NCBI GenBank assembly: GCA_017546455.1
Contig: JAFYWY010000048.1
Location: 1 to 57,606, forward strand
Length of the DNA: 57,606 nt
Direction of reading: 5' to 3'
Origin: Opitutales bacterium
GTDB taxonomy: Bacteria > Verrucomicrobiota > Verrucomicrobiia > Opitutales > UBA953
Part shown: positions 1,877 through 10,678 of the stretch, in pieces
How the letters are laid out: the number at the start of each line of letters is the position of its first letter
Numbering within the stretch: position 1 is the first letter of the stretch
The notes under the pieces: model-generated
What the model saw: only the letters and a program-made list of their open reading frames with translations
The model's database searches: none
Told to the model about the DNA's origin: nothing
Program-made: the position numbers and the translations under genes

Positions 1877-3430
1877 CTAACGTACGGAATATTCGATGAT
1901 GAGTTTTTCGTCGGGAGCCAGTTCCATCTGGTCCGGAAGCATCAGGAAGTTCTTGGTCGAGCTGTGTTCCACATCAACAACTTCACCGGAGTTGCCCTTG
2001 ACACGCGTGAAGCGAATCGGCTCGTCGGTATTGCGCAGCTCGGGGAACCAGAAGCGGAATTCAGACTTGCGGGTCTTCCCCTGCGTTCCCGTCACCGTGA
2101 TGCGGCGCGCTTTGCCCTTTGTTTCGAGCGTGTAGTGCCAGGGCTGGCAATTCTTTGCTTTTTGGTCAAACGCCGAGCGGAACAGCGGATCGCCGTAGAA
2201 CGCGATGACGTCGCGGTCATGGAAACGGCCCAAATTATCACGCGTAACCTCGGCTTTGGTTTCATACAAAGCACGATGCGCGACATTCATATCGACGCCG
2301 CTCATGTCCTTCGCGCGCAACGGAAGCTTGTGGCTGCGCAGGACGTCCGGCAGACGCTCCAAGTTGCGCTGATTCGTAAAATACCACGCCTGACCGACAG
2401 TAACATCCTGGTGGCCGTTGAAGAAATTGCCGTGAACATCCCATCCTACGCCATACCAGGTCGGGACCGTGTAACCGACGAGCTGGCGTACGCCGTATTC
2501 GGACAGCAAGGTCGCCGCGACGGAATCCGGGCTGCGCAGAACGTCGCCGAAGAGGCAGTTGCCGGAAGCAATCCAGATTTTCGGATCGTTATTCGGCTTA
2601 ATCGAAAGCAGTTTGTGCTCCTTCGCGTAACTTTCAACTTTTTCGGGCTCGCCGAGGCGACGCAGGAAGTCGCGCATTTGAGCCGTCTTAAAGCAATAGA
2701 ATTTTCCCTTCGCGGGCGCGATAAGACCACGGCTGTAGGGCATTTCGAGATTGAACTCGGTCGCGTGCGATGCGGAAATCAAGTACTGCGGATTGATTTC
2801 ATCGAACTTTTTTGCAAAAAGCTCGACGATTTCTTTGCCTTCGGGAAGGAATTTCTTTTCGGAAGAAACCCCGTTGCGCGTTTCCACGTACTGATTGGCT
2901 TCCCAGTCGGTAACGAAGAAATGACGCTTAAAACGTTCCAAGTCGCAATTCGTCGTGCTGACGCCGCGTTCGAGCAAAAGCGGAGCCTTTTGGGCTTCGA
3001 CGAGCAATTCGGCCTGCTTCGGCGAACGCGCGGTGATAATCCCGAAAATCGCGTCTCCGTAAAAATCCGGGTCGATGCGGCGTGCCATTCCGTGAAGATC
3101 GGCGACGACGACGCGGTCGATTTCCTGCGGCTTGGCAACGACGGCGATGTAACGCGGCTGAGCTTCCTTAAGCGCAGCTTCAAGCTCCGTTACATTTTCT
3201 TTCCAGGTAAGGATTTTGCCCTTGTAGCGCTTTTGAAGCGTAGCGGCGACCTTCGCCCAGCCCGCGTCTTTGGCGGTCGATTCCGAAATCAGAATCGCAT
3301 ACTCGCCGGCGGCGGGAATGATTTTTCCGGGGTCGGAAACGGGTTGCCAATCTTCGGCGGCGTAAACCGTCGCGAGGCCGGCGGGAATGAAACAGGCGGC
3401 ACAAAGCCAGGAGCGGAATATCTTTTTCAT
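1877..3430 (-). CDS. Secreted gingipain-like (clan CD) cysteine peptidase candidate
   Basis: The frame can extend to 3487, but ATG at 3428-3430 gives a clean signal peptide (MKKIFRSWLC, hydrophobic core, then VYAAEDW), so I choose it; the mature protein is about 490 residues. Two spaced motifs resemble the catalytic dyad of C25/clan CD peptidases: a His in LISASHATEFN (about residue 254) and a Cys in WIASGNCLFGD (about residue 313), the latter followed by a helix and a VGYT segment with Trp-Tyr-Gly. This would make it a periplasmic or secreted endopeptidase, but overall similarity to gingipains is faint and a non-catalytic relative is possible. It is the last gene of the operon, 13 bases after the HAD gene. 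Confidence 0.5.
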   Translation of the reverse strand: MKKIFRSWLCAACFIPAGLATVYAAEDWQPVSDPGKIIPAAGEYAILISESTAKDAGWAKVAATLQKRYKGKILTWKENVTELEAALKEAQPRYIAVVAKPQEIDRVVVADLHGMARRIDPDFYGDAIFGIITARSPKQAELLVEAQKAPLLLERGVSTTNCDLERFKRHFFVTDWEANQYVETRNGVSSEKKFLPEGKEIVELFAKKFDEINPQYLISASHATEFNLEMPYSRGLIAPAKGKFYCFKTAQMRDFLRRLGEPEKVESYAKEHKLLSIKPNNDPKIWIASGNCLFGDVLRSPDSVAATLLSEYGVRQLVGYTVPTWYGVGWDVHGNFFNGHQDVTVGQAWYFTNQRNLERLPDVLRSHKLPLRAKDMSGVDMNVAHRALYETKAEVTRDNLGRFHDRDVIAFYGDPLFRSAFDQKAKNCQPWHYTLETKGKARRITVTGTQGKTRKSEFRFWFPELRNTDEPIRFTRVKGNSGEVVDVEHSSTKNFLMLPDQMELAPDEKLIIEYSVR

Positions 3431-3443
3431 GGGTAATAAATAT

Positions 3444-4127
3444 TTAGTTATGAGGTATGAATTTAAACAAATCGTGACCCAAGGCAAACATGTTCGGGAA
3501 AATCATTTCCTGTGAGCCCGTGCATTCAATCAGCGCCTCGGGCAAATGCGTTCCCGTCGCAACACAGGCCACCGGCATACCGACGGCCCGCGCAGCACTG
3601 ACGTCGAAAGGCGAATCGCCGACAAGCATCGCATTTTCCGCAGACAGATTCATTTTTTTCAAAACGTATTCGGAATATTCTCGCTGCGGCTTGCGCCAGG
3701 GCATGTCGGGAAGATTTGTCCCGAAAACGGCATCAATGAGCGGCGACAGCTTCAGGTAATCCAGAAGCGCCACGCTCGAAACATGTTCCTTGTTCGTAAA
3801 AACGGCGGTTCGGATACCGCGCTCCCGCAGGTTTTTCAGCATCCACTCAACACCTTCCAGCACGAAAACGTCTTCAAACATCACCTCCGGGAAATGGGCG
3901 CGGAAACGGCGCACGCCTTCATCGGCGAGGTCTTCTCCGATGAGCTTGGAAAGCGTCATCGTGATGGAACCGCCGACCGTCGCGCGCAACACCTGATAGC
4001 TTTTGGGAACAAGGCCCATCTCCCGCGCGATATCGGCGTAGCACTTGTAAATCGCGCGAAAATTGTCAATCAGCGTCCCGTCCAGATCGAAAAAGACGGT
4101 TTGAATCTTGGATAAATCCGCAGGCAT
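3444..4127 (-). CDS. HAD-superfamily phosphatase, phosphoglycolate phosphatase-like
   Basis: The ATG at 4125-4127 (MPADLSK) puts the first catalytic motif FFDLDGTLIDN near residue 12 and starts four bases after the upstream M48 stop; an in-frame upstream ATG at 4184 would overlap that gene and give an odd N-terminus. Motif II is AVFTNK, motif III the Lys of WRKPQREY, and motif IV GDSPFDVSAA; residues 15-80 form a helical cap. It most resembles Gph/PpaX-type monophosphate hydrolases. The substrate cannot be told from the sequence. It is co-transcribed with the envelope genes on either side. Confidence 0.85.
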   Translation of the reverse strand: MPADLSKIQTVFFDLDGTLIDNFRAIYKCYADIAREMGLVPKSYQVLRATVGGSITMTLSKLIGEDLADEGVRRFRAHFPEVMFEDVFVLEGVEWMLKNLRERGIRTAVFTNKEHVSSVALLDYLKLSPLIDAVFGTNLPDMPWRKPQREYSEYVLKKMNLSAENAMLVGDSPFDVSAARAVGMPVACVATGTHLPEALIECTGSQEMIFPNMFALGHDLFKFIPHN

Positions 4128-4131
4128 AAAA

Positions 4132-5901
4132 TCAGAGTTGAATACGTTTATAAATCGGACAGGCGAGGGCCAGCGAAAGGGCATTGATCAAATCGGCTTC
4201 CGCAGCGGACACCTTCCCGTCCGCCAAAGCAACGGCGTCGCACACCTTAATCAGGTTTTCCCGGAAAATGATAGGGGCGCTTCGAAGCACGTCGAATGCA
4301 CGGTCGAGTGCGGGCACTTCGAGCTGAGATGCCGCAACGAGATGCAGACGCGCGGGGAAGAATGTTTGATCGGCGAGAATCGCCCGTAGCTTCTGCTCGG
4401 CATCGGCAGGCGCGAAGCGGTTTTCCCGCATAACCACGGAAAATGCGATTTCGGCGGCAGCTAAGCGTTCGGACTCGGAGAATTCCGCGTCCCCGTCCCA
4501 AAGCAAGAGGCCTTCGACAATGCGGATAATCAGGAACTCGAAAAGCGCAATTTCACCGTCGGCTTCCGCCAAACGCCGCAACGTCGCACAAATCGCCTTA
4601 CGCTCCTTCTGCGAATAATCCCGCAGCTGCGGCGCCGCCAGGATGACGAGCGAAAGGCGTTTTTCCGGCGGAAGCGCCAAAACGGATTCCCAATTCGCCT
4701 CCAAAATCGCAAATACATCCTTCTTTTCCGTGCGGATCAGAAGATTCGCCTGCACCTGATCGTCGTCGCGGGAATGCGTCATCATCAGCAGGTAAACGAG
4801 CGCGCGGGCGCCCTTGGGATTTTTGGCGAGATCGGCAAGCGCCCAATGCTGCATCGACGGCACGGAGGCTTCTCCGGCAGGAGCTTCGTTCTTGGTTTTT
4901 CCCGAGCGCAGAAACTTGCCGTCCCAAGCCGGATTAAGAGCACGAATGCGCTCCTCCAGCGGCGGGTGCGTCGCAAAAAGCGATTGAACACCGCAGGCAA
5001 AAAAGAAATGGGAATACTCGCTCGCGTGCGGCGACTCCAAAATACTCGAATCGCCGCCGATGCGGGCAAGTGCATTGGCCAAAGCCACCGGATTGCGCGT
5101 AAACTGCGTCGCCGACGCGTCCGCCAAACGTTCGCGGTGGCGGGAAATCGCGGCCTGAATGATGCTTGCGAAAAATTGGCTGATCGAACCGATAATCAGA
5201 ATCGCCAAACCGATGATAACGAGCGCCTGCCCGCCGTCATTTTTTCGGGAACGGGAATTGCCGGAAAGCATCGCGCTTTGCATCAGAATGCGTCCGACGA
5301 GCGCTAACACGACCAAGCCGAAAATCCAGCCGATGAGCTTAACGTTCAAGCGCATGTCGCCGTTCAGAATATGCGAAAATTCGTGACCGACAACCGCCTG
5401 CAACTCGTCGCGGGTAAGTTTGTCGAGCGCCCCGCGGGAAACGGCAATCGCCGCATTTTCAATGCGCGTCCCTGCCGCAAACGCGTTGATGCTTTTTTCG
5501 CGCTCGAGAATAAAAATCTTCGGCATCGGCACGCCCGAAGCGATGGACATTTCCTGGACAACGTTTACGAGCCGGCGGCGATCCGCTTCACTCGCATTCG
5601 GATTCACGGCAACCCCGCCGAGCTCCCGCGCAATCATTTCACCGCTCGAACTTCCCAGCTCCAGACTTTTGAAAAAACTCGCGCCCCCGACCAGCAAAAG
5701 CGTACCGCCGAACGCGTAGGCGAAAATCTCCGGCTCCCAGTACGAACCGCCCGGCAAAATGTCGGCATAAATCAACGCCGCCACGGCGACCGCATAGATC
5801 GCGGCTGCCGTGCCCAAAACCGCAAGCGCAAACCAGACGACGAGCCAATGCGTCGCCCGGCGCGCCCTGTCCTGCCGCTCAAAGAAGTTCGTTCCCGACA
5901 T
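4132..5901 (-). CDS. M48-family integral membrane metallopeptidase with TerB-like C-terminal region
   Basis: A 589-residue protein. The N-terminal half is HtpX-like: hydrophobic segments near residues 19-45 and 60-80, the zinc motif HEFSH at about 173-177 (GHEFSHILNGD), two further membrane segments near 187-206 and 226-250, and the third zinc ligand in RERLAD. The C-terminal half is helical and carries two segments of the TerB type, with an ADGE element near residue 455 and a clearer ADGKVSAAEADLI near 565. HtpX proteases cut damaged membrane proteins; the TerB-like extension is not in standard HtpX. The LpoB stop is three bases upstream and the HAD start four bases downstream, so translation is probably coupled. 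Confidence 0.85.
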   Translation of the reverse strand: MSGTNFFERQDRARRATHWLVVWFALAVLGTAAAIYAVAVAALIYADILPGGSYWEPEIFAYAFGGTLLLVGGASFFKSLELGSSSGEMIARELGGVAVNPNASEADRRRLVNVVQEMSIASGVPMPKIFILEREKSINAFAAGTRIENAAIAVSRGALDKLTRDELQAVVGHEFSHILNGDMRLNVKLIGWIFGLVVLALVGRILMQSAMLSGNSRSRKNDGGQALVIIGLAILIIGSISQFFASIIQAAISRHRERLADASATQFTRNPVALANALARIGGDSSILESPHASEYSHFFFACGVQSLFATHPPLEERIRALNPAWDGKFLRSGKTKNEAPAGEASVPSMQHWALADLAKNPKGARALVYLLMMTHSRDDDQVQANLLIRTEKKDVFAILEANWESVLALPPEKRLSLVILAAPQLRDYSQKERKAICATLRRLAEADGEIALFEFLIIRIVEGLLLWDGDAEFSESERLAAAEIAFSVVMRENRFAPADAEQKLRAILADQTFFPARLHLVAASQLEVPALDRAFDVLRSAPIIFRENLIKVCDAVALADGKVSAAEADLINALSLALACPIYKRIQL

Positions 5902-5904
5902 CGA

Positions 5905-6483
5905 TTACCACCCGACGGAATTCTTTTCGCCCTGCTTCGTAATGGTCTTCGAATCCATCCAAACCACGTTGCCGGTCTTCGCTTCGACAAGGCGCATCGA
6001 AAACACATAGGAAACCTGGCGCATGCTGTCGGCACGAGCCGTCACCTCCGAAATCTTCCCGATAAGCGTCAAGTCCGGAACGACCGTTTCCGTGCCGCCG
6101 AGCGCGGCGACGTCCTGGCGCACGCTGTCGTCGTTGCGGTCAACGCTCATCGACATCGAGATAATCGCTTTGCGGGACTTCAAAATAGCTTCCTGGACCT
6201 GATTCGTCAGCAGGGCCGTATCAAAATTGTTCGTGGTGTCGTTGACGACGCGGCTGAGTGCGACCACCGGCTTTTTCGCGCCCGCGAAGGCGTCCCAGGT
6301 CAGCATGTCGGCCACCAGTGCTTCCGTCGCAGATTGGAAATCCTGGATATCGACCTTGTTCAGCGACACGACGGTTTCCGGACCGTTGGAGTCGATATAG
6401 CGCGCTTTCTGCGAGGCGCAGGCGCCGAGGGCGAGCGTTCCCGCAGCGAGCAAAAGCATGGAAAGGGATTTTTTAAGTGTCAT
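5905..6483 (-). CDS. lpoB: Outer-membrane lipoprotein activator of penicillin-binding protein, LpoB family
   Basis: A 192-residue lipoprotein with a signal peptide and lipobox LGAC (lipidated Cys22). The rest fits the LpoB/PBP-activator domain: KPVVALSRVVNDT, then DTALLTNQVQEAILKS, and the end KTGNVVWMDSK with I-T-K-Q. In Enterobacteria LpoB reaches through the periplasm to stimulate the bifunctional peptidoglycan synthase PBP1b. It lacks the long proline-rich linker of the E. coli protein. The YcfL-like gene is 32 bases upstream, the same pairing as ycfL-lpoB in E. coli. No PBP gene is in the window. Confidence 0.85.
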   Translation of the reverse strand: MTLKKSLSMLLLAAGTLALGACASQKARYIDSNGPETVVSLNKVDIQDFQSATEALVADMLTWDAFAGAKKPVVALSRVVNDTTNNFDTALLTNQVQEAILKSRKAIISMSMSVDRNDDSVRQDVAALGGTETVVPDLTLIGKISEVTARADSMRQVSYVFSMRLVEAKTGNVVWMDSKTITKQGEKNSVGW

Positions 6484-6515
6484 GGTTTTTCCTTATTTTT
6501 GAGTAATTTTAAAAT

Positions 6516-6923
6516 TTATTCGCAGCGTTTCAGCGAGATGCGAAAATCACGCGCCGACGCATTGGGCGCCACGGCCGTAATCGATTCAATCTTCGACGGC
6601 TGGATATTGAGCTGATTCCAAGCCGCGGGAACATCGATTTTCATTCCCTGCTCGTCAAACCATTCGACGAGATAGACCACGCGACCGATTTCGCTCGTAT
6701 GGTTCATGAGTTCGAGCTGAACGCGCATCACATTGTCGGAAACGGTTCCCGTACGCACCTCAAGCGGCGTCGCCATTTCAAGTGTCTTAGAGTCGGTGAC
6801 AACACGGCGGTCCTGCGTTCCCGTGCGTTCAACCACGTTGACGGAAGCCGCGCAGGCAGAAAAGAAAACAGTACCGCCGACGAGCGCGGCAAGGAGGATT
6901 TTTCTTAAGGGAAAGCGTGCCAT
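6516..6923 (-). CDS. YcfL-family (DUF1425) lipoprotein
   Basis: A 135-residue protein with a signal peptide and lipobox FSAC (Cys24). The mature part matches the YcfL/DUF1425 pattern: an immunoglobulin-like beta fold with MRVQLELMNHTSEI, then VYLVEWFDEQGM, and an end resembling TAVAPNASARDFRISL. The function of the family is unknown. Its repeated linkage to LpoB suggests a role in regulating peptidoglycan synthesis. It lies between the COG3014-type lipoprotein (7-base gap) and lpoB. Confidence 0.8.
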   Translation of the reverse strand: MARFPLRKILLAALVGGTVFFSACAASVNVVERTGTQDRRVVTDSKTLEMATPLEVRTGTVSDNVMRVQLELMNHTSEIGRVVYLVEWFDEQGMKIDVPAAWNQLNIQPSKIESITAVAPNASARDFRISLKRCE

Positions 6924-6930
6924 AGAATTA

Positions 6931-8349
6931 TTATTTGAGGATAAATTGATTCACTTTCGGTTCCAATGCAAATCCGACGGCCTTCACGAGGACGATATTA
7001 ACCTTGCCCGGCAATAACTCGACTTGCACGCGATGCCCGGCAACTTCGACCTGTAGGCGGCGCGACTCCGGCGTCGGCAGGCGCACGACGGAGAAATTCT
7101 CGGGAAGTGTCTGCCAAATGCGCAAGTCCGCCTCCGCCGATGCGTAAGTAAACGCGTTTGTGGCAATCATTCCCCCGAGCGCGATAAGCGCGGCGGCTGT
7201 GCTTCCGTCACGCCGGGCGTATTCCTCCGCGGCGGCATTGGCGGCGACGGAAGCGGCTGTCTTCAAAAACGCCGTGGTCAGCGTCCGCGCAAGCACCGCG
7301 GGATAGGCATTTTCGAAATCGGTTTTGACGGCCCGATTCATGTCGCAAAGCGTCTGCGCGGAAATGTCGTTCGCCCGCATCACGGGAATCCCCGCAGACT
7401 GCTCGCGGGAGAGCTTCGGCAAAGCGATACAAAAAGGCGCAATCGTGAAATTGCCGTTCCCGACCGGAAACGGGAAAAATTCGTCGATGCGCGAAGCCAC
7501 AAGCGTCGGCGCCACGCCGTATTCGAAAATAACGTAAGTAAGCGCTTCGTTCGCCGGAGTAACCTGAGCCAAATCTTCCCGCACGAAAGCGTTTCCGGGC
7601 TCCATCTGAGCCACGCGCTCCAGAGATTTCCGTCCCCGCTCGCGGTCGGCACCGTCCGTTCCCGCATGAATAAAACAGATGCCGTGAAGCCAAGTCGTAA
7701 ACGGGTTCACATAATCGGCATAAGCGGCAAATTCCGAAGATGCGCTTTTTTCTTTTTCCAGCGCCTCGGCAACGGACGGCAGGCTTTCCAGAGACACCAG
7801 ATCGACTTCATTTTCGGCCGCAGAAGCCTGTGCCTTTTCGATGTGCTTCCGATTAGTTTCGACGGCATCGCTCTGCGCCTGAAACGCCGCATTGAGCGCC
7901 ACCCGGGCCTCGTCACGTTTTCCCGCCTCCAAATAATTCAACGCACGGTAAGTCTGCAGCATGATGCGGTCTATCCCGCGGCCGCGGTACGGAAGCGATG
8001 CCAGGCTCGACAGCGTTGCGACGGTTTCCTGCGAAATGAGGAAATCGGCCTTTTCGTCCCAAGATTCGAGCGTCGCGGCGGCAGCGTCGAGGGCAAGCTG
8101 CGCCTCCGCGTTACGCTGCTGGCCACGCAAAACGGACGCATGTTCCAACTGCCAAATCAGGCGGTCCTTGTCGTCGGCATCTTGCACCTCCTCAGCGACC
8201 AGCTGCTCGGCAAATGCAAAATTGCCCTGCTTCCACGCGCCGCGAAGGTCCGTTGCCTTCCCGGAATAGGCCGCGGAACAGCCGCCGAAAAAAGCAGCTC
8301 CCGCAAGCATGAAGACGATTCCGAAAAATGCCGATTGGTTTTGTTTCAT
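6931..8349 (-). CDS. COG3014-type lipoprotein with TPR-like N-terminal region
   Basis: ATG at 8347-8349 is chosen because it starts a proper lipoprotein signal (MKQNQSAFFG, lipobox FGGC, Cys24); an upstream ATG at 8415 only adds a non-signal peptide. The 472-residue product has an alpha-helical region rich in Ala and Glu (about residues 30-220) that resembles tetratricopeptide repeats, then a beta-rich region. In Vibrio and relatives I recall COG3014 proteins encoded next to YcfL and LpoB, the order seen here, so a role with the PBP activator is likely. It is the first gene of the six-gene operon and divergent from the Fur-family gene. Confidence 0.75.
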   Translation of the reverse strand: MKQNQSAFFGIVFMLAGAAFFGGCSAAYSGKATDLRGAWKQGNFAFAEQLVAEEVQDADDKDRLIWQLEHASVLRGQQRNAEAQLALDAAAATLESWDEKADFLISQETVATLSSLASLPYRGRGIDRIMLQTYRALNYLEAGKRDEARVALNAAFQAQSDAVETNRKHIEKAQASAAENEVDLVSLESLPSVAEALEKEKSASSEFAAYADYVNPFTTWLHGICFIHAGTDGADRERGRKSLERVAQMEPGNAFVREDLAQVTPANEALTYVIFEYGVAPTLVASRIDEFFPFPVGNGNFTIAPFCIALPKLSREQSAGIPVMRANDISAQTLCDMNRAVKTDFENAYPAVLARTLTTAFLKTAASVAANAAAEEYARRDGSTAAALIALGGMIATNAFTYASAEADLRIWQTLPENFSVVRLPTPESRRLQVEVAGHRVQVELLPGKVNIVLVKAVGFALEPKVNQFILK

Positions 8350-8470: not shown

Positions 8471-8968
8471 ATGAAAAATTCTACCGCCCCGATGAATTTT
8501 GGAGAAGTACTCGCCTCCGTCGGACTCAGAAGCACGCGTCCGCGCCTGACGATTTGGGAAGCCGCCTATTACTACGAAGGACATTTCACCGCCGAAGACC
8601 TGCTGATCGCGGCACGCAAACTCTATTCGAAGATTTCCCGCGCCACGGTCTACCGCGCCCTGCCGGACCTGATTCGCTCCGGAATTCTCAGTGAACTCAA
8701 CGTCGGACGCGACTTTAAGTACTACGAAAGCACGCGCAACGCCGGCACCTTCAAAGGACATATCGTCTGCACGAATTGCGATAAAATTATCGAGTTCGAC
8801 GCCCCTTTCATGGACTGGTACGGACGTGCCATCGCCGAAAAAAACGGCCTGACCTTTATCACGCAGCACCTGCAAATCACGGCACGCTGCCCGAATTGCA
8901 ACCGCGAACAGGCAGCCGCCGAAAGCACGCCCGCAACCGGCAACCCGAAAACAGAAAATCACGTTTAA
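8471..8968 (+). CDS. Fur-family transcriptional regulator
   Basis: 165 residues. The N-terminal winged helix includes RSTRPRLTIWE and the recognition region ISRATVYRALPDLIRSGIL. The C-terminal dimerisation domain keeps both structural-zinc pairs, CTNC (about 98-101) and CPNC (about 139-142), and the HIVC segment that follows FKG. Such proteins bind DNA with a metal (iron, zinc or manganese) or sense peroxide; the sequence does not settle which. The long N-terminus and the low-complexity tail after CPNC are unremarkable. It is divergent from the lipoprotein operon and upstream of the DUF4091-hemE cluster, where haem synthesis would fit an iron regulator. Confidence 0.9.
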   Translation: MKNSTAPMNFGEVLASVGLRSTRPRLTIWEAAYYYEGHFTAEDLLIAARKLYSKISRATVYRALPDLIRSGILSELNVGRDFKYYESTRNAGTFKGHIVCTNCDKIIEFDAPFMDWYGRAIAEKNGLTFITQHLQITARCPNCNREQAAAESTPATGNPKTENHV

Positions 8969-8983
8969 CCTCCAATACGAACA

Positions 8984-10678
8984 ATGAAAATCGCTCCGCT
9001 CCTCCCTTTCCTCGTCTGTACCTTGGCCGCCCCCGCCGCCAACGCCTACACTCACAACCAGATTGCCGATGAAATGAGCTACGTCCCCGCCGGCGATCTT
9101 TCCGCCGTCGCCGAAAATTTCCTCGGAGAAAAGCGTGCCGCCTGGCGCGGCGAACGCGTGCTCGTCCGCGTCAAAACCGTACTCCCGGAAGATGCGGAAA
9201 TTTCGGCCGGGCTGTCCGTCATCAGCGGAACGAAAACCGTCAAGTCCCGCGCGCGCGCAGAATACGTGCGCTCGACGCTCGGGCAAGGCGGCAAGCCCGT
9301 CGCCGACATCGTCGAGCCCGAGGGCGAAGTTACCCTCCGTACCCAATCCGAGAAAATCGTCATTAAGCCGGCTGCACCCCCCTTTAAAATTCCGGCGGGA
9401 GAAGCCGTCATCCTCGTTTCCGCAGACATCGCGGCCGACGAAAATCCCGGTACGCTCGGTTTAAATTTATCCGTAAACGGCAAACCTCAGCCCATCGCCG
9501 AGATCGAAGTCCTGCCCGCCGTGCTCCCGCCGCCGCAGGATTGGAAAATCCACCTCGACCTATGGCAACACCCGGAAGCCGTCGCCCGCTGGACCGGCAC
9601 AAAACTTTGGTCGCGGGAGCACTTCGACGCGATGAAGCCGCTCATGAAGCGCCTCGCCGACGCCGGCCAAAAAGCCGTTACCTGCTCCATCATCGAAGAG
9701 CCTTGGGATCACCAGACACGCGACCACTGGAGCTCGATGGTTCAATGGCGCAAAACGAAATCCGGCGAATGGGCATTCGACTATACGGCGTTCGATAAAT
9801 ACGTCGATTTCATGATGAATGAGGTCGGCATCCGCGAACAGATTTCCTGCTATACGATGGTTTCCTGGTCGCTCAAAACCACATACTTCGACGAAGCTTC
9901 CGGAACCGCGAAAACCATTTCGCTCGACCCGAAATCGCCGGACTACGACGCGACGTGGAAGGCGTTTCTGACCAACTTTCGCGCCCACCTGAAACAACGC
10001 GGTCTGCTCGAAAAAACCTGTATCGCACTCGACGAACGCCCGGACCATCTCGTCAACGCCGCCCGCGGAGTCGTCGAAAAATACGCACCGGAACTCAAAA
10101 TCGTTTCCGCCGTCGACCGCCCGACGAAGATGGCCCATTTCGTCTACGACATCTCTGCCGTCTTCCAGCATTCCGCAGGCCTTCAGGAGCTTGCCGATTC
10201 CCGCCGCAAAGAAAACCGCAAGACAACCTGCTACGTCTGCACGAATCCGGCGAAACCGAATACGTTCCCGCATTCCGCGCCGGCCGAACCGCATTGGCTT
10301 TTGCTCTACACCTCGGCCAACCGCTTCGACGGATTTCTGCGCTGGGCGTACAATTCCTGGGTCGATAATCCCTTTGCGGATTGCCGCTGGCCGAAGCGCT
10401 ACTGGCCCGCGGGAGACTGCTTCCTCGTCTATCCCGGCAACCGGACAACGCTCCGATTCGAAACGCTCCGCGACGGCATCGAAGATTTTGAAAAAATCCG
10501 ACTGCTCCGGGACGCTTCCCGTCAGACAGACGCCTCCGATGCGCTCAAAAGCGCCGTCGCGGATTTGGAAAACTACCTGACGACGACGTTCACGGTCGAA
10601 GCCGGTTTCGGCAACGCACACAGCAAGCAGGTCCGTGACGCCCGCAAACTCATCGATGACGCCTCCCGCCGTCTGTAA
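8984..10678 (+). CDS. Secreted DUF4091 protein, glycoside-hydrolase-like
   Basis: A 564-residue exported protein: signal peptide ending ANAYT, a beta-rich N-terminal domain (about 25-180), and a TIM-barrel-like region beginning PQDWKIHLDLWQHPE. The DUF4091 signature is at the end (GFLRWAYNSWVDNPF, WPAGDCFLVYPG, LRDGIEDFEKIRLL). The domain is found with family GH123-like glycosidases, and an acidic pair (IIEEPWDH, near residue 231; ALDERPD, near 348) could be catalytic. The substrate is unknown; a host or dietary glycan is an inference. It starts 15 bases after the Fur-family gene. Confidence 0.8.
   Translation: MKIAPLLPFLVCTLAAPAANAYTHNQIADEMSYVPAGDLSAVAENFLGEKRAAWRGERVLVRVKTVLPEDAEISAGLSVISGTKTVKSRARAEYVRSTLGQGGKPVADIVEPEGEVTLRTQSEKIVIKPAAPPFKIPAGEAVILVSADIAADENPGTLGLNLSVNGKPQPIAEIEVLPAVLPPPQDWKIHLDLWQHPEAVARWTGTKLWSREHFDAMKPLMKRLADAGQKAVTCSIIEEPWDHQTRDHWSSMVQWRKTKSGEWAFDYTAFDKYVDFMMNEVGIREQISCYTMVSWSLKTTYFDEASGTAKTISLDPKSPDYDATWKAFLTNFRAHLKQRGLLEKTCIALDERPDHLVNAARGVVEKYAPELKIVSAVDRPTKMAHFVYDISAVFQHSAGLQELADSRRKENRKTTCYVCTNPAKPNTFPHSAPAEPHWLLLYTSANRFDGFLRWAYNSWVDNPFADCRWPKRYWPAGDCFLVYPGNRTTLRFETLRDGIEDFEKIRLLRDASRQTDASDALKSAVADLENYLTTTFTVEAGFGNAHSKQVRDARKLIDDASRRL

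Follow-up and report, generated by a model that had tools for sequence, protein, structure and literature searches.

LpoB is the outer-membrane lipoprotein activator of PBP1B, on which UB2H serves as its docking domain. In E. coli, ycfL lies directly before lpoB, and many non-enterobacterial genomes carry genes named 'PBP activator LpoB'. Clan CD peptidases, among them the gingipains RgpB and Kgp of peptidase family C25, carry their catalytic His and Cys after strands. The window analysed below is a 57,606-nucleotide stretch of DNA from an Opitutales gut bacterium of Candidatus Spyradosoma, and it contains six adjacent genes, here called A to F, that touch on these systems. Genes A–F are a real operon-like unit, in which an extension specific to the genus follows a conserved core of envelope-lipoprotein genes.

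The six open reading frames all lie on the minus strand and span positions 8349–1877. Their coordinates were checked in the window, and the layout described in a first-pass annotation was borne out in every coordinate and gap, with 7, 32, 3, 4 and 13 bases separating A–B, B–C, C–D, D–E and E–F. The strong terminator reported after the gene set corresponds to an intrinsic terminator-like hairpin on the minus strand (1825–1860), which sits just 3′ of gene F and has the longest stem among the listed terminator-like sites (15 pairs, 10 of them G–C), followed by a T-rich tail (TTGTTTTTGG). A scan of the site list revealed no minus-strand terminator-like site in any of the five gaps between A and F. 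A one-transcript layout, as predicted from sequence, is supported. Internal promoters or terminators had been named as features that would separate the genes: terminators were not found in the gaps, whereas one weak promoter-like match (9/12) lies at 6533–6506, around the end of gene B and the B–C gap, and leaves room for an internal promoter near that junction.

Upstream, a Fur-family gene (8471–8968, plus strand) is divergent from gene A, with ~120 bases between them, and likely marks the start of the operon. A GH123-family glycoside hydrolase gene (8984–10678) also stands beside the operon, and a GH123-like open reading frame is found ~6 kb from LpoB in one congener, G007 (L152:13448–15001). 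At the other end, a PEP-CTERM protein gene (816–1736) follows on the same strand directly after the operon terminator.

Gene A (6931–8349, minus strand) encodes a 472-residue protein that is called a lipoprotein because its lipobox cysteine, Cys24, is invariant in 16 relatives. It matches no Pfam or NCBIfam family, which leaves the COG3014 name first given to it tentative, and gave no usable fold match; weak TPR-like hints were all that the fold and family searches returned. Gene B (6516–6923, minus strand) encodes a 135-residue lipoprotein of the YcfL type (DUF1425; PF07233, E = 4.9e-15), as first assigned. Gene C (5905–6483, minus strand) encodes a 192-residue LpoB-family lipoprotein with a PF13036 match above the curated cut-off (E = 2.6e-21) and a lipobox cysteine, Cys22, that is invariant in 15 relatives. 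Its family profile matches solved LpoB chains at E = 2.3e-5, but gene C misses the LpoB equivalog TIGR02722, with 91.9 bits against a cut-off of 110.55. The earlier identification of gene C as LpoB thus stands as family membership, while the label of PBP activator is doubtful, given the missed equivalog and the failure to find UB2H described below. Literature searches for COG3014, and for DUF1425 together with LpoB, found nothing; LpoB and YcfL appear together in passing mentions only, as judged by occurrence counts in the literature.

Conservation of this core was assessed in 57 related genomes and then at 101 LpoB-family loci across Verrucomicrobiota, where a gene counted as a neighbour if it shared the strand of LpoB and lay no more than 2.5 kb away. 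Gene A occurs near LpoB at 83 of the 101 loci, upstream of YcfL/LpoB at most of the 101, and YcfL occurs near LpoB at 75, consistent with the conserved LpoB/YcfL linkage assumed at the outset. A CsgG-like gene is found at 41 of the loci, often upstream of the core. The linkage of A, B and C is far above chance, and the A–YcfL–LpoB core is an old, ordinary gene set, which is also annotated in Proteobacteria. In deeper relatives (L160:3701–5816 and L162:7329–9449), two extra genes precede gene A, one CsgG-like and the other PEGA-containing or unnamed, which suggests a larger outer-membrane lipoprotein set. Tandem pairs of LpoB-family genes lie inside the A–YcfL cluster in several members of the phylum (L225, L229, L230, L233, L236, L256 and L267, with others similar).

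The PBP1B partner expected of an LpoB protein was sought by profile. The UB2H profile had no match in the window genome at E ≤ 0.01 and gave nothing over cut-off in the 57 related genomes, a set that includes the window genome; controls, including E. coli, were positive. A single class A PBP (PF00912) was found in the window genome. Its weak BiPBP_C match, together with an open reading frame directly upstream that contains an alpha-2-macroglobulin MG10 domain, leads it to be read as PBP1C-like, since an alpha-2-macroglobulin-type neighbour is expected of PBP1C. A PBP1B-type synthase was not found in this genome. Because UB2H was not found, the PBP looks PBP1C-like and TIGR02722 was missed, gene C, for all its resemblance to LpoB, probably does not serve as a PBP1B activator. 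The name 'PBP activator LpoB' here therefore sits in an organism where UB2H and PBP1B were not found, which makes the role of the widespread A–YcfL–LpoB set open to test.

Gene D (4132–5901, minus strand) encodes a 589-residue membrane zinc peptidase of the M48, HtpX-type family (PF01435, E = 1.5e-30), whose sequence contains hydrophobic segments and an HEFSH motif (HExxH). Its C-terminal region includes a TerB-like domain (PF05099, E = 2.4e-5), and the protein falls under every NCBIfam HtpX equivalog cut-off, the best score reaching 180.7 bits where 355 are required. Gene E (3444–4127, minus strand) encodes a 227-residue HAD-family phosphatase (PF13419, HAD_2; E = 2.8e-30). The M48 membrane peptidase and HAD phosphatase identities proposed earlier both agree with these matches.

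Gene F (1877–3430, minus strand) encodes a 517-residue exported protein, with an N-terminal signal sequence visible in the sequence and a gingipain-like (clan CD/C25-like) fold in its predicted structure. It has no Pfam or NCBIfam match, and a search of 21 members of its family against Pfam C25 at E ≤ 1 matched none. Since comparison with the PDB and Pfam by sequence, singly and as a profile, yielded chance-level matches only, the family was placed by fold comparison alone. An AlphaFold2 model, built on an alignment of the protein and 43 relatives found in public genomes, reached a pLDDT of 92.5 and superposes on RgpB with a Z score of 22.2 over 276 residues (3.3 Å) and on Kgp with a Z score of 20.7; the next structural group, the Craspase CHAT proteases, follows at 12.4. 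Plain Foldseek put Kgp at the top of its ranking, although TM scores were low, and a rerun with VIA-align was clear. Across the alignment of 44 sequences, His222 and Cys292 are invariant, and in the model each follows a strand, with a β-sandwich at the C-terminus. On the evidence of the model, the earlier guess of a gingipain-like, clan CD protein is right at the level of fold, and gene F most likely encodes an exported putative cysteine peptidase of a family without a name in Pfam or NCBIfam, its activity being suggested by this fold and these residues. A literature search for the family found nothing.

Relatives of gene F occur in Akkermansia, Bacteroidales and Planctomycetota. At the Akkermansia fusion loci (L075–L110, L116 and L120), the F domain forms the C-terminal part of ~1450-residue proteins in 32 Akkermansia-type open frames. 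All three of the frames scanned by Pfam start with M16 domains; HxxEH is present in the N-terminal part of all 32 frames, and a Gly-Asn-Cys motif in 31 of the 32. The family, with this F–M16 fusion in many Akkermansia genomes, is relevant to the way gut bacteria break down protein from the host or the diet.

Linkage of D, E and F to the core was traced through eight Candidatus Spyradosoma species, including the window genome itself (G000; 2.15 Mb, 98.3% complete). A gene-neighbourhood search had been proposed for a four- to six-gene set, with linkage in this genome alone to count against the suggested proteolytic control. The full six-gene order was found in the window genome only, among the 57 relatives and the 101 LpoB loci, and the LpoB–M48 step of the four-gene set is nearly confined to a single genome: gene D follows LpoB in two of the eight congeners, the window genome and G006, which are also the two phylum loci out of 101. 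Gene E is near LpoB at two of the 101 loci and gene F at one. G006 keeps A–B–C–D and E–F, the latter adjacency being common to it and the window genome. In G003, gene E comes directly after LpoB (C–E), and a close homologue of D was not found, though the LpoB gene is present. It was considered whether the D–E gap in G006 is a mere contig break; this was rejected, as E is on a different contig there and the gene upstream of it is divergent. G000, G006 and G003 are ~40–70% identical in their operon proteins, and the recurrence of C–D and E–F in G006 and of C–E in G003 at this divergence indicates that the neighbours are not random.

In the other five congeners, a different HAD gene follows LpoB, and the window-genome relative of that gene is located on another contig. 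Gene F lies away from LpoB in these five, between CoaB-type and CPBP (CAAX-type) protease genes in those inspected by family. As a separate observation, a HAD phosphatase gene stands directly after LpoB in six of the eight congeners, with two distinct HAD types represented; HAD genes in this position lie at L037:3341–3982, L147:7999–8727, L149:1362–2024, L150:3234–3872 and L151:6020–6724.

It is proposed that the locus is a conserved envelope-lipoprotein set whose transcription unit was extended within Candidatus Spyradosoma by D, E and F, all tied by service to the envelope, and we consider this account probable. The core of A, YcfL and the LpoB-like gene, often preceded at other loci by a CsgG-like gene, would be the envelope-lipoprotein set that the M48 peptidase, HAD phosphatase and gingipain-fold peptidase genes joined within the genus. 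At the outer membrane, the products of A, B and C may assemble into a lipoprotein complex that faces the periplasm, and its LpoB-like member would work without a UB2H dock on PBP1B. The M48 peptidase could provide general inner-membrane quality control, and the product of gene F could digest or process exported proteins. Through a promoter and terminator shared with A–B–C, genes D, E and F would all serve the envelope, rather than act on LpoB. Points that weigh against this proposal are the recurrence of C–D and E–F in G006 and of C–E in G003, that UB2H is short and divergent, such that an HMM may miss it, and that in a genome 98% complete a second PBP might fall in an assembly gap.

A less likely account, though one with a real claim, is that the six-gene order was ancestral to the genus as a functional envelope-maintenance operon and that rearrangement removed it from the other species; an ancestral A–B–C–D–E–F operon broken up elsewhere would itself favour some functional tie. 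Pieces of the same order do survive in three species (all of it in G000, A–B–C–D and E–F in G006, and C–E, with D missing, in G003), and the five species without it form one supported clade in the tree. Yet the D–E adjacency is seen in the window genome only, other genera of the family have A–B–C without D, E or F adjoining, and in G006 an opposite-strand gene precedes E while D ends at the contig end. The tree also leaves the root among G000, G006 and G003 not resolved, and it decides neither for an order at the base of the genus that then decayed nor for stepwise assembly; the origin could be either.

Of about the same likelihood is an account in which the neighbourhood carries no function, with D, E and F having landed by rearrangement behind a well-expressed lipoprotein operon and sharing nothing with it except read-through. 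The sporadic nature of the linkages would fit such a history, as would the different HAD gene at the post-LpoB position in five congeners, but gaps of 3–13 bases, a single terminator at the end and the partial recurrence in G006 and G003 argue against it. Very improbable is the model first put forward, in which a peptidoglycan synthase is activated by A–B–C, and D and F, by cleaving these lipoproteins or turning them over, place cell-wall synthesis under proteolytic control. The tight packing in one apparent operon, the retained active-site motif of D (HEFSH), the candidate one of F (His222/Cys292) and the second C–D adjacency in G006 speak for it, but D is nearby at 2 and F at 1 of the 101 LpoB loci, G003 has the LpoB gene and no close D homologue was found there, and control of a PBP1B–LpoB complex is unsupported because no UB2H was found over cut-off and the one class A PBP that the search found looks like PBP1C.

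Returning to the envelope-service proposal, a more speculative extension may be entertained, which we hold only tentatively. The 'LpoB' of the phylum could belong to a PBP1B-independent outer-membrane machine composed of the CsgG-like protein, A, YcfL and the LpoB-like protein. Gene F, in turn, could found a large clan CD peptidase family, so far unrecognised, of gut and environmental PVC bacteria and Bacteroidales, joined to M16 in Akkermansia and wired to the lipoprotein machine in Spyradosoma. Two matters are worth following: an LpoB-like set for which no PBP1B partner could be seen, and a gingipain-fold family outside the named libraries, exported, known by its fold and missed by both Pfam and NCBIfam.

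Compared with the described systems, the locus is closest in its core to the ycfL–lpoB pair of E. coli, in which a YcfL-type gene comes directly before an LpoB-family gene, as B does before C. Gene C matches PF13036, and its family profile matches solved LpoB structures; it differs in scoring under the TIGR02722 cut-off and in its setting, where no UB2H passed the cut-off and no PBP1B-type synthase was found. Plasmid p1 of Azospirillum sp. TSH100 carries the same order of an A homologue (26% identical), a 'YcfL family protein' and lpoB, but a DUF6844 gene follows the set there, whereas the M48, HAD and gingipain-like genes occupy that place in the window. With the HtpX/M48 membrane peptidases, gene D shares the M48 domain, HExxH and hydrophobic segments, and it is set apart by the missed equivalog cut-offs and by a long C-terminal extension in which a TerB-like match falls. 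The modelled product of gene F shares the fold of RgpB and Kgp over residues 37–424 (Z 20.7–22.2), along with an invariant His and Cys, a candidate catalytic dyad, after successive strands and a C-terminal β-sandwich, but is only ~11% identical to them and has no Pfam C25 match. Unlike the two gingipains, gene F belongs to a large group that includes the M16-fused forms of Akkermansia.
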